From NCBI GenBank assembly GCA_016196825.1, contig JACPWY010000072.1:62001-126000 (forward strand): 64,000 bases of DNA. The letters run 5' to 3'. This document shows positions 16,560 to 19,778 of this stretch, one piece after another (the stretch's first letter is position 1; every line of letters starts with the position of its first letter). The notes under the pieces are model-generated. The model made no database searches, was not told where the DNA came from, and was given only the letters and a program-made list of their open reading frames with translations. This DNA is from Deltaproteobacteria bacterium (GTDB lineage: Bacteria > Bdellovibrionota > FAC87 > UBA2466). The position numbers were made by a program, and so were the translations under genes.

Positions 16560-17723
16560 TTGAGCAGGTATCTCGGCTCACTTCTTCTCAAGCGCTATTC
16601 TATTCCCCGCGGAAATTTGACGACGTTTGCCATGGGTGTCGCGGTGCTCGGGGTTGCTATCGGAATTGCGCAATTGATGTTGGTGCTGTCTGTGATGTCT
16701 GGCTTTGAGGACATGCTGAAGACGAATTACACGCGGATCACCTCCGACCTAGTTGTTTTTGGCGAGGGTGTGAAGGAGGCGGACATTCGCAAGGACAAGC
16801 GGGTCTTGGCAACGACCGAATCCTATTTTTCCCAGGCGCTTTTGACGGGGAAGGCGAGCGTGGCCGGAGTGGTGCTGGAGGGGATTGATCCGAAAACCTC
16901 GGAGAGCGTGACCAATTGGCATTCGGTGATGCAAAAAGGGCCGGTGAAAGTAATGGGAGATTGGATTTGGCTCGGCTATGCGTGTGCGGAGAAGTTGGGC
17001 GTGGGGGTTGGGGAGCAGGTCGAGATCACGCTCTTTGATGGGCGAAAGCGGAAGGCGGTTCCGGTGACGGTGGCTGGGATCACAAAGTTTGGGATTTACG
17101 ATCACGACAAGCGCTATGCGCGAATCGACAACGCGCTCTTTATTCGACTATTCGGCGCCAGGAACCCCATCTATAAGCTGAAGCTGGTCGCCCGGGTAGA
17201 CCCGGAGGGTGTGAAGCCGGCTTTGCAGAAGAGACTTGGGCGATCGGCGCACATTCGGTTGTGGAATGAGCTCCACAGGAATCAGTTCTTGGCGGTGCAG
17301 CATCAGAAGAAATTGTTGTTTTTGGTACTTCAGATCGTGATCGCGCTCGCTGGGATCAATGTCGTGAATCTGTTGGTGATGAACACCCATTTTCGCAATC
17401 GAGATTTGGCGATCTTGAGGGCGATGGGAATGCCGCGAATATCGGTGTTTAAGATCTTTCTCACGCAGGGCCTTCTGATTGGTCTGTGTGGTGTCGTTGG
17501 CGGCGTAGCTCTTGGAGTGGTCGTATGCTTTGTCGTCGAGCATTTCCAGCCGAACATTTTGAGTGAAGCGGTCTATAATGTGACTCGGCTTCCGATTGTG
17601 ATTCAGCCGCTCGACGTGGTAGCGCTCTCGGCGGCGGCGCTCTTTCTTTGCCTAGTGTTTAGCGTGTTCCCGGCTTGGCGGGCCACGAGGCGTTCGCCGA
17701 TGGAGGCGTTGAGGAATGAGTAG
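16560..17723 (+). CDS. lolC: Lipoprotein-releasing ABC permease LolC/LolE
   Basis: 387 residues from a TTG at 16560. The FtsX/LolE topology is clear: one N-terminal membrane helix (about 20-46), a large periplasmic domain (about 47-255) and three helices near the C-terminus (about 260, 305 and 355). With LolD it extracts lipoproteins from the inner membrane for LolA. Only one LolC/E-type gene occurs here, so a homodimer (LolF-like) is possible. The ATPase partner lies downstream beyond an unrelated AAA/DUF4143 gene. Confidence 0.9.
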   Translation: MSRYLGSLLLKRYSIPRGNLTTFAMGVAVLGVAIGIAQLMLVLSVMSGFEDMLKTNYTRITSDLVVFGEGVKEADIRKDKRVLATTESYFSQALLTGKASVAGVVLEGIDPKTSESVTNWHSVMQKGPVKVMGDWIWLGYACAEKLGVGVGEQVEITLFDGRKRKAVPVTVAGITKFGIYDHDKRYARIDNALFIRLFGARNPIYKLKLVARVDPEGVKPALQKRLGRSAHIRLWNELHRNQFLAVQHQKKLLFLVLQIVIALAGINVVNLLVMNTHFRNRDLAILRAMGMPRISVFKIFLTQGLLIGLCGVVGGVALGVVVCFVVEHFQPNILSEAVYNVTRLPIVIQPLDVVALSAAALFLCLVFSVFPAWRATRRSPMEALRNE

Positions 17724-17801
17724 GGGAGAGACGGAGACCTGTTTACCGTCATCCCGATACGTCGCAGCATCGAACTGGGTCGAAGGCATCCGTTGCTAAG
17801 A

Positions 17802-17842
17802 AACTATATTTGCGTTTGGTGCGACTAAACGCTAATATAGTT
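17802..17842. repeat. 16-nt inverted repeat overlapping the ATPase promoter region
   Basis: Arms at 17802-17817 and 17827-17842, with one mismatch and a 9-nt spacer. The right arm contains TATAGT (17836-17841), a good -10 hexamer ending 7 nt before ATG 17849. The conserved core is GCGTTT...AAACGC. The position suggests an operator or autoregulatory site, or the end of a mobile unit carrying the ATPase gene. Confidence 0.65.
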
Positions 17843-17848
17843 ATTGAC

Positions 17849-19006
17849 ATGATGACTTCTCTTCGAAAACGCAACTATTGGGTTGAAAAAATTGAGGAAT
17901 TACTGGCCCTTCGCTCCGTTCTCTGGTTGAGCGGGGTGCGGCGGTCCGGCAAGACTACATTGTGTCAATCGTTAGAACGGGGGGAGTTTTTTGATTGTGA
18001 GTTGCCTCGTGTACGCACGCAATTGGAGGATCCCGAGACCTTTTTCAAGAGACTGAGTGGCAAGAGAGTCATCTTGGATGAGATTCAAAGACTGTACAAT
18101 CCGAGTGAGGTTCTCAAGATCGCGGCTGATCATTTTCCCAAGGTGCAGGTCGTTGCTACCGGTTCATCCACTTTGTCGGCCAGGCGCAAATTCAAGGATA
18201 CGCTGACCGGACGAAAGTATGAACTGTGGCTGACCCCCTCTATTTGTCGGGATCTTGACGATTGGGGAAATCTGAACCTTTCCACCAGGATGGTCAGAGG
18301 AGGCTTGCCTCCCTTTCTACTCTCGAAAAGCGGCCTCGATCGGGACTTTCAGGAGTGGCTTGATTCCTTTTGGGCTAAGGACATCCAGGAACTATTTGTT
18401 ATCGATAAGCGAGCAGCCTTCTTTCGATTTTTGGAATTGCTCTTCAGACAAAGCGGCCAACTCTTTGAGGCGCAGGCCTTCTCGGCTCCGTGCGAGGTGT
18501 CAAGACAGACCATCATGAACTATCTGGATATTCTGGAGACGACCCATCTTGCCACGGTCCTCAGACCTTACGTCGGGGGGAGTGCAGCCGAGATCAAGAG
18601 CCAGCCAAAGGTTTACGGTTTTGACACTGGGTTCGTGTGCTACTTCGCTGGAATTGATGAGCCCGACTCGGAAGAAAAGGGTCAGTTGCTCGAGCACCTG
18701 ACACTGAATGAGCTGCAAGCCAGGTTTCACAGGGACACTCTTTTCTACTGGAGAAACAAGGCGAAAAACGAGATTGATTTTGTTGTGAAGCCAGGCCGCG
18801 GAAATGCGGTCTATGCTATAGAGTGCAAAAATCGATACAAAAACTTTGATCCATCTGCAATGAATGCGTTCCGGAAGTTCCACCCGATTGGGAGGAATCT
18901 TTTGGTGGCTTTGGACGTTGACGAGGTCAGTGAAAGAAGAGTCGGAACGCTAGACCTTGTCCAATGTCCCCTCAATGCCCTCGCGAAGCAGTTGGTATCT
19001 CAGTGA
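17849..19006 (+). CDS. AAA ATPase with DUF4143 domain, lodged between lolC/E and lolD
   Basis: 385 residues from ATG 17849; an upstream extension to 17810 runs through the inverted repeat and is unlikely. An AAA_14-type ATPase with Walker A GVRRSGKTT (about 29-37) and Walker B RVILDEIQ (about 73-80) precedes a winged-helix region and a C-terminal DUF4143 domain. That domain shows the PD-(D/E)XK-like pattern Asn-Glu-Ile-Asp...Glu-Cys-Lys (about 300-330). The family is widespread, often horizontally moved, and of unclear function. It splits genes that normally act as one unit and looks lower in G+C, which suggests transfer. Confidence 0.88.
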   Translation: MMTSLRKRNYWVEKIEELLALRSVLWLSGVRRSGKTTLCQSLERGEFFDCELPRVRTQLEDPETFFKRLSGKRVILDEIQRLYNPSEVLKIAADHFPKVQVVATGSSTLSARRKFKDTLTGRKYELWLTPSICRDLDDWGNLNLSTRMVRGGLPPFLLSKSGLDRDFQEWLDSFWAKDIQELFVIDKRAAFFRFLELLFRQSGQLFEAQAFSAPCEVSRQTIMNYLDILETTHLATVLRPYVGGSAAEIKSQPKVYGFDTGFVCYFAGIDEPDSEEKGQLLEHLTLNELQARFHRDTLFYWRNKAKNEIDFVVKPGRGNAVYAIECKNRYKNFDPSAMNAFRKFHPIGRNLLVALDVDEVSERRVGTLDLVQCPLNALAKQLVSQ

Positions 19007-19085
19007 TTGCCAACAGCAATGCCAAGGCTAAGCTAGACCTGAAAATGACCATGCGTTCGCTAACCTAAGAGGAAAAGGGGCACGA

Positions 19086-19778
19086 GTGATGGAGCAGCCG
19101 CTCATAGTTGCCAAGGGCATCGCGAAGAAATTTTCTACCGCCTCCGCCGCCGAGGTGCTGAAGGGCGTAGACCTCACCGTCAAGGTCGGGGAGAAGATCG
19201 CAATCATCGGAAAAAGCGGCGCGGGGAAGAGCACTCTGCTTCATGTTTTGGGGACGCTCGAAAAGCCGACCGCGGGTGAGATTCTTTTTGAGGGGGAGGA
19301 TGTCTTTTCCTATGATGACACTAAGCTCGCCCAGTATCGCAACGCCAAGATCGGTTTTGTGTTCCAGTTTCACTATCTGATGCTCGAATTCACGGCCCTT
19401 GAGAACGTGATGATTCCGATGCTGCTAGGAGGGGTGAACCCGTCTGATGCTCGGCGAGAAGCGCTCGATCTTCTGGGGCTTGTGGGCCTGTCCCACCGGG
19501 TGGCGCACAAGCCGAGCCAGCTTTCGGGGGGGGAGCAGCAACGAGTCGCTATCGCCCGGGCCCTTTCGCGTTCGCCGAAACTGCTGTTGACCGACGAGAT
19601 GACCGGAAACCTCGATGGGGAAACCGGCCGGGCGATTCTGGACCTTGTCGACTCGATCCAAAGAGAGCGGGGGATGACGCTCATCTCTGTGACGCATGAC
19701 GACCAAGTTGCAGCTCGGAGCCCCTTCGTCTACCGTCTCGAGGCTGGCACTCTCGTGGCGAAAACCCCTTTTGGTTGA
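19086..19778 (+). CDS. lolD: Lipoprotein-releasing ABC ATPase LolD
   Basis: 230 residues. GTG 19086 and ATG 19089 are adjacent in-frame starts; the GAGG and AGGGG stretches upstream favour either. Walker A IGKSGAGKST ends at residue 50, the signature LSGGEQQR lies at about 146-153, and Walker B LLLTDEMTGNLD follows at about 167 (Met replaces the usual Pro of DEPTG). LolD energises lipoprotein release by LolC/E. The partner permease lies 1.4 kb upstream, separated by the DUF4143 gene. BamA follows after about 50 bp. Confidence 0.92.
   Translation: MMEQPLIVAKGIAKKFSTASAAEVLKGVDLTVKVGEKIAIIGKSGAGKSTLLHVLGTLEKPTAGEILFEGEDVFSYDDTKLAQYRNAKIGFVFQFHYLMLEFTALENVMIPMLLGGVNPSDARREALDLLGLVGLSHRVAHKPSQLSGGEQQRVAIARALSRSPKLLLTDEMTGNLDGETGRAILDLVDSIQRERGMTLISVTHDDQVAARSPFVYRLEAGTLVAKTPFG

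Follow-up and report, generated by a model that had tools for sequence, protein, structure and literature searches.

A DUF4143 gene separates lolC/E from lolD

The window analyzed here is a 64,000-nucleotide stretch of a 3.54-Mb genome in 74 contigs. It contains, in one orientation, valS, a lolC/E-type permease gene, an AAA_14/DUF4143 gene, lolD, and a bamA-type gene (Table 1). A first-pass annotation, made from the sequence alone, had pointed out that a 385-residue AAA_14/DUF4143 gene splits lolC/E from lolD. This was borne out, and the gene is intact. There was no partner gene for it within the lolC/E-lolD gap. The 78-nt spacer that follows lolC/E is neither a repeat nor a REP element, as it is present in only one copy in the genome.

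Table 1. Features of the lolC/E-DUF4143-lolD region (window coordinates)
Feature	Position	Strand	Remarks
lolC/E-type permease gene	16560..17723	+	left neighbor
Spacer, lolC/E to palindrome	17724..17801	+	78 nt
Left arm of private palindrome	17802..17817	+	AACTATATTTGCGTTT
Right arm of private palindrome	17827..17842	+	AAACGCTAATATAGTT; 1 mismatch
-10-like hexamer TATAGT	17836..17841	+	in right arm, 7 nt before ATG; predicted leaderless transcript; by eye
AAA_14/DUF4143 gene	17849..19006	+	385 aa; PDC-S01-type; motifs intact
Walker A, GVRRSGKT	17933..17956	+	residues 29-36; invariant G29, G34, K35
Walker B	18065..18082	+	residues 73-78; acidic pair D77 E78; invariant
Winged helix-turn-helix	18410..18568	+	residues 188-240; recognition helix 219-231; model; HTH_11 E 2e-4
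PD-(D/E)XK-type nuclease core	18692..18829	+	E282, D310, E325-x-K327; at least 90% conserved; model
lolD ATPase gene	19086..19778	+	right neighbor

We found that the DUF4143 gene is A+T-rich, as it had appeared by eye. Its GC content is 50.3%, the second lowest of the 38 long genes in the window (median 55.8%), and its GC3 is 58.4%, the third lowest (median 67.2%).

We compared the locus with relatives that lack the insertion, a check that the annotation had proposed. In 13 of 13 relatives from the same family or the same order (L011-L023; all that could be examined), lolC/E and lolD adjoin with no DUF4143 gene between them. The two genes either overlap or are separated by anything from a few nt up to some tens of nt. 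The family is patchy: DUF4143 genes were found in 26 of 39 relatives, and the number of matches in a genome ranged from 0 to 31. The source genome has about 29 such genes. The homologues nearest to this copy (44-54% identity) come from other families of the same phylum, and a search of 291 genomes found no close homologue in its own family. Based on the 13 relatives without the gene at this place, the patchy family, and the nearest homologues in other families, we conclude from sequence comparison that the gene is a lineage-specific acquisition. Horizontal transfer is the simplest account of its presence there.

The predicted protein combines an ATPase, a winged helix-turn-helix, and a nuclease-type domain

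The protein belongs to the AAA_14/DUF4143 family. It matches both Pfam AAA_14 (PF13173; residues 23-130, E 9e-19, 68.1 bits, cut-off 27) and Pfam DUF4143 (PF13635; residues 177-328, E 5e-31, 107.9 bits, cut-off 28.1), each above the curated cut-off. As a single gene it also matches the PADLOC profile PDC-S01 (E 3e-49), which places it in a candidate defense family.

A structure model (pLDDT 89.9) contains a P-loop ATPase, a winged helix-turn-helix (HTH), and a C-terminal PD-(D/E)XK-like core. The motif D310..E325-x-K327 and the strand pattern in the model assign this core to the PD-(D/E)XK superfamily and make it a predicted nuclease; the region also has weak NERD and DUF234 matches. The Walker A/B and nuclease-type residues (G34, K35, D77, E78, D310, E325, and K327) are all present, and the window copy looks intact. 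Assignment of the PDC-S01 domain to the PD-(D/E)XK superfamily is stated in PMC12988326.

The best PDB fold match of the model was 2qen (E 8.7e-9, TM 0.46-0.50, 14% identity), with further fold matches to Cdc6/Orc1, RuvB, Avs4, and Apaf-1. The sequence profile matched 2fna (E 2.4e-8), which we take to be SSO1545. The MNS clade is marked by a P-loop ATPase plus winged HTH with the 2qen/2fna fold, and the window protein is a possible member: the E-values were significant and the HTH_11 match supports a winged HTH, but the TM-score was about 0.5. The likeness to these STAND-type archaeal ATPases (2qen, PAB2304; 2fna) lies in the fold and profile matches. However, the TM-score is partial, the identity is low, the matched proteins are archaeal, and the nuclease domain lies outside the comparison.

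The palindrome at the window promoter is private

We found the inverted repeat at the promoter as it had been described, with arms of 16+16 nt (17802-17842), one mismatch, and the -10-like hexamer covered. It ends 6 nt before the ATG at 17849, and the loop between its arms is 9 nt. None of 200 dinucleotide shuffles of this promoter, and none of the 257 genes of the second control set, reached its score.

The first-pass annotation had proposed looking for the same palindrome before other DUF4143 genes. It was not there; the sequence is private to the window gene. The full palindrome had a single occurrence in the 3.54-Mb genome with up to 3 mismatches allowed, and neither arm was found elsewhere in the genome at fewer than 2 mismatches. 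The next best arm match had 2 mismatches, with no excess over a reversed-pattern control. The first-pass annotation had held that a palindrome present only once would speak against its proposal. The palindrome is literally present only once, but this was the wrong test, since most copies of the gene in this genome have their own, different palindromes.

Palindromes precede many DUF4143 genes

Most DUF4143 promoters of the source genome (~29 genes) contain their own, different inverted repeat that reaches the start codon. An example is CATGAGTAAAGTGAT-6-ATCACTTTACTCATG, in which the final three letters are the start codon. To score inverted repeats we took the best one at -60 to +9 around the start codon, with a threshold of at least 9. 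Start codons were assigned by rule: the ATG closest to Walker A that left 14 codons or more in between, or the first ATG for controls. The controls were neighboring genes, unmatched for AT content; AT content was controlled for by dinucleotide shuffles of each gene.

The first set comprised 116 distinct genes from the source and related genomes. Of these, 44% reached the threshold, versus 2.1% of 240 neighboring genes (p = 7e-23). By dinucleotide shuffling, 38/116 genes were at p <= 0.01, where about 1 was expected, and 19/28 scored copies of the source genome were at p <= 0.05. Named genomes from many phyla supplied most of the 83 genes in the second set, which also took in two plasmids' worth of other taxa and one gut phage contig. 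The threshold was reached by 29% of these genes and by 2.7% of controls (p = 2e-17). In windows along 199 genes, such repeats were present in 37.7% of genes at -60 to +9 versus 1.5-5% just outside, and in 0-3% in coding-region windows. The excess is confined to the promoter and start codon. More than half of the sampled genes fell below the strict threshold, some of them with direct repeats or weak dyads.

These sequence comparisons indicate that a palindrome, each with its own sequence, precedes the gene in many sampled members of the family. We found no description of a family-wide palindrome rule in the literature searched.

Some promoters had other arrangements instead of, or besides, one dyad. 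The L058 promoter has tandem direct repeats (GTCTAAATTACA..TTGAC, twice), and the L057 promoter has CACTGAC three times. In one subclass (promoters of L183, L199, L237, L239, L207, and L223), many palindromes have ATCATGAT at their center, and some members of the family may have a common core around this sequence.

The two arms change together and stay with the gene

We compared the pairing of each gene's own arms with that of arms dealt among genes. Among 78 genes, dereplicated at 50% identity and compared at a fixed register, pairing was better for own than for dealt arms (z 6.1, 0/300). Long palindromes with related cores are found in most members of the window gene's subfamily. The core GCGTTTGGTnnnACTAAACGC is common to this gene and L259, and L264, L286, L287, and L288 have an ACTTTAC-type core in common. 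Own halves in this subfamily paired at 79.5% of 20 symmetric positions versus 54% for dealt halves, and the maximum of 5000 deals of right halves among genes was 73.5%. The palindromes were picked by an inverted-repeat search, so the pairing shows privacy and not the existence of the palindromes. By this sequence measure, the arms change together in the window gene's subfamily.

The palindromes are also kept when the surroundings differ. Seven Roseobacter-type homologues on alphaproteobacterial plasmids (70-89% identity) all have CCTTGCAA..TTGCAAGG-t-ATG, with different genes around them and unrelated sequence upstream. Two Thermus loci likewise have a palindrome in common and different upstream sequence: TT_P0211-type DNA at another Thermus locus keeps TTGTCTTTCCGCTACTGAATGACTATCATTCA[AG]GTATG. 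(We equate TT_RS11170 with TT_P0211 on the basis of its position and its description rather than a locus-tag table.) The one hint from expression also concerns TT_P0211, an AAA_14/DUF4143 gene, which was previously reported to be 6.6-fold up in wild-type Thermus with a plasmid, and only when Argonaute was present (PMC4406477). Because of this dependence on Argonaute, the induction may be indirect.

We also compared recognition helices with operator sequences across genes. The trend was positive and not significant (Mantel p = 0.095 with 10 genes and 0.14 with 91 genes).

DUF4143 promoters are of a predicted leaderless type

A -10-like hexamer ended 6-8 nt before the ATG in 53/112 DUF4143 genes versus 17/240 controls. 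Shine-Dalgarno-like motifs were nearly absent, with 2/112 versus 49/240 in controls. Promoter statistics of the second set went in the same direction. Because the hexamer is close to the ATG and Shine-Dalgarno-like motifs are so rare, we predict that DUF4143 genes are transcribed without a leader. In the commonest register, the dyad is centered 15 nt before the ATG, so that the partner of the ATG is a CAT that closely follows the -35.

DUF4143 genes are found as solitary, probably mobile units

Thermus thermophilus megaplasmids differ in the presence of the gene. In three of them (L159, L245, and L247), a DUF4143 gene lies between pxpA and CRISPR repeats. In four others (L242, L243, L244, and L246), pxpA runs straight into the CRISPR array. 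With about 1.34 kb, the inserted unit is little longer than the gene itself (1.22 kb); gain and loss are not polarised at this site. The alignment of filled and empty Thermus sites had no visible target-site duplication or terminal repeats, and in 29 genes there was no second arm copy 3' of the gene, with matches no better than shuffled. We rejected an insertion sequence or transposon, as the unit is a single non-transposase gene with no arm copies downstream and no target-site duplication in Thermus.

At the sensitivity used, the family was found in 305 plasmid records versus 6 in a phage collection. We found no defense-island context at four other DUF4143 loci, where the neighbors were mostly ordinary, unrelated genes.

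The first-pass annotation had offered two options for the window gene. One was that the gene is mobile cargo and encodes a protein that binds the palindrome at its promoter. This is the better supported of the two, although only in part: the patchy distribution, the nearest homologues in other families, the empty sites, and the odd base composition with low GC argue for mobility, while binding of the protein to its own palindrome is something we infer. The other option, a regulated ATPase in an essential operon, is compatible with the data, but nothing points to a role in lipoprotein transport.

Several arrangements of copies were also seen. Five DUF4143 genes lie in about 6.5 kb of one contig of the source genome (L044; G000:C28:8000-20568), and two of these are truncated (L044:5988-6812, without Walker A, and L044:10503-10889). 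Two other copies in this genome lie directly 3' of tRNA-Arg and tRNA-Cys genes (L052:4294-4368 and L054:3908-3981). On Roseobacter-group repABC plasmids (L158 and L248), a DUF4143 gene directly follows repC.

A proposed private operator at a self-contained module

We suggest, with a probability of roughly 0.7, that the DUF4143 (PDC-S01) gene is a self-contained, horizontally moving one-gene module that represses itself through a private palindromic operator at a leaderless promoter. Sequence analysis supports the anatomy of the module, a palindrome at a fixed place with a private sequence for each gene, and correlated arms, and likewise the insertion between lolC/E and lolD and the leaderless-type spacing. 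The palindromes lie over promoters and differ in sequence from gene to gene, which suggests that each gene is switched by the protein it encodes.

The module would consist of a minimal leaderless promoter inside the private operator, followed by a gene for a protein in which an AAA_14 ATPase is joined to a winged HTH and a nuclease domain of PD-(D/E)XK type. On entry into a cell, the gene would need no ribosome-binding site and would be transcribed from its own promoter. Dimers or larger oligomers of the protein would bind the palindrome via the winged HTH and cover the -10 and the transcription start, so that expression of the protein would be held low. A trigger, perhaps invading DNA, would pull the protein off the palindrome and expression would rise. 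The released ATPase-driven nuclease would then act on nucleic acid, and the benefit could be defense or selfish maintenance.

Other explanations of the palindromes are less consistent with these results. DUF4143 promoters are AT-rich, and palindromes might be a chance by-product of this. The shuffles, the position profile, the symmetric variation, and the conservation across genera rule this out at the family level, and we consider its probability negligible. The arms are long and near the start codon, as expected of an RNA hairpin that controls translation or termination. However, the predicted transcription start coincides with the ATG or precedes it by a few nt. The left arm, which in the commonest register is just after the -35, would therefore usually lie upstream of the transcript; a role in RNA is highly improbable. 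Binding of a host regulator, rather than the encoded protein, is hardly more credible, given that about 29 genes in one genome have different sequences, that the window arm is nowhere else at fewer than 2 mismatches, and that the sites accompany the gene from one genus to another.

The palindrome could also be a cleavage or recombination site that moves the gene, as in a minimal homing or transposing element, with its promoter position secondary. This would fit a gene that moves as a ~1.3-kb unit with almost nothing else, a protein with a nuclease-type domain, and a conserved stretch that begins near the palindrome in Roseobacter and Thermus. It is improbable nonetheless: the second arm copy downstream, the target-site duplication, and the terminal repeats are all missing from the genes and alignment described above, the place of the palindrome is fixed relative to the -10 and ATG, which fits regulation, and a nuclease that cuts its own promoter would be costly. 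Lastly, the unit might be purely selfish or addictive (toxin-like), with autorepression making it harmless while it spreads. This rivals the defense reading only and is compatible with a private operator. The many matches in some genomes (up to 31), the solitary position among unrelated genes rather than in defense islands at the loci looked at, the truncated copies, and the many plasmid and few phage records at this sensitivity are in its favor. The standing of PDC-S01 as a PADLOC defense candidate, fourth most common across prokaryotes in PMC12988326, is against it, and we regard a purely selfish unit as somewhat unlikely.

Relation to known systems

PDC-S01, with about 39,000 loci, ranks fourth among defense systems across prokaryotes, and validation is pending for most defense candidates of its kind (PMC12988326). 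The window gene resembles it as a single gene whose product joins an ATPase to a domain of the PD-(D/E)XK superfamily, with family HMM matches of up to E 3e-49. It differs in its promoter rule, which we did not find for PDC-S01 in the literature searched; an antiviral role is a candidate function only.

We infer autorepression by the winged HTH of the DUF4143 protein on its private operator, with M.SsoII and C genes as precedents. M.SsoII is a methyltransferase whose binding to a site found only in its own system represses its gene and inhibits the enzyme (PMC6100179). The likeness is an enzyme that doubles as its own repressor via an operator-like palindrome, but M.SsoII is an unrelated protein, a methyltransferase with an N-terminal regulator domain. 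Controller (C) proteins of restriction-modification systems have leaderless transcripts and control their own genes (PMC4824078). Their genes, too, belong to a mobile module and combine a leaderless transcript with an operator at their own promoter; in contrast, the C protein is a separate small regulator and not a domain of the effector. AbiE is reportedly autoregulated too, but by a separate regulator protein. RptR represses a defense locus at promoter repeats (PMC12255303). The repression is similar, but it is exerted by a separate regulator protein and at shared rather than private sites.

The private-operator architecture is new as a variant of known autoregulatory logic; the protein family itself is known. 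A palindrome found gene by gene across many phyla gives a direct handle on the very common PDC-S01 family. It predicts the target of the winged HTH, the transcription start, and independent regulation of paralogues in one cell. Private operators would show how a one-gene module is able to settle at nearly any site, an essential operon included, and bring its own control.

A broader possibility, which we consider doubtful, is that PDC-S01 proteins are effectors locked to a DNA address and belong to a naked mobile class that includes some Fic genes. The operator would be a safety lock: the palindrome would hold the ATPase-nuclease inactive on its own gene until competing DNA removed the protein. 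Members of the general class would be solitary effectors with their own winged HTH and a private operator over a leaderless promoter.

Fic genes had been meant as a negative control. In related genomes, 7/24 of them had an inverted repeat scoring at least 9 at -60 to +9, which weakens any claim that the palindromes are exclusive to DUF4143 genes. This suggests that the design is not exclusive to the family and that there is a broader class. The Fic genes with strong inverted repeats were L320, L305, L306, L307, L311, L304, and L309, and several Fic genes have an apparent C-terminal winged HTH. In L320, the repeat is CATATTTGCTGCTA..TAGCAGCAAATATG and ends on the ATG.
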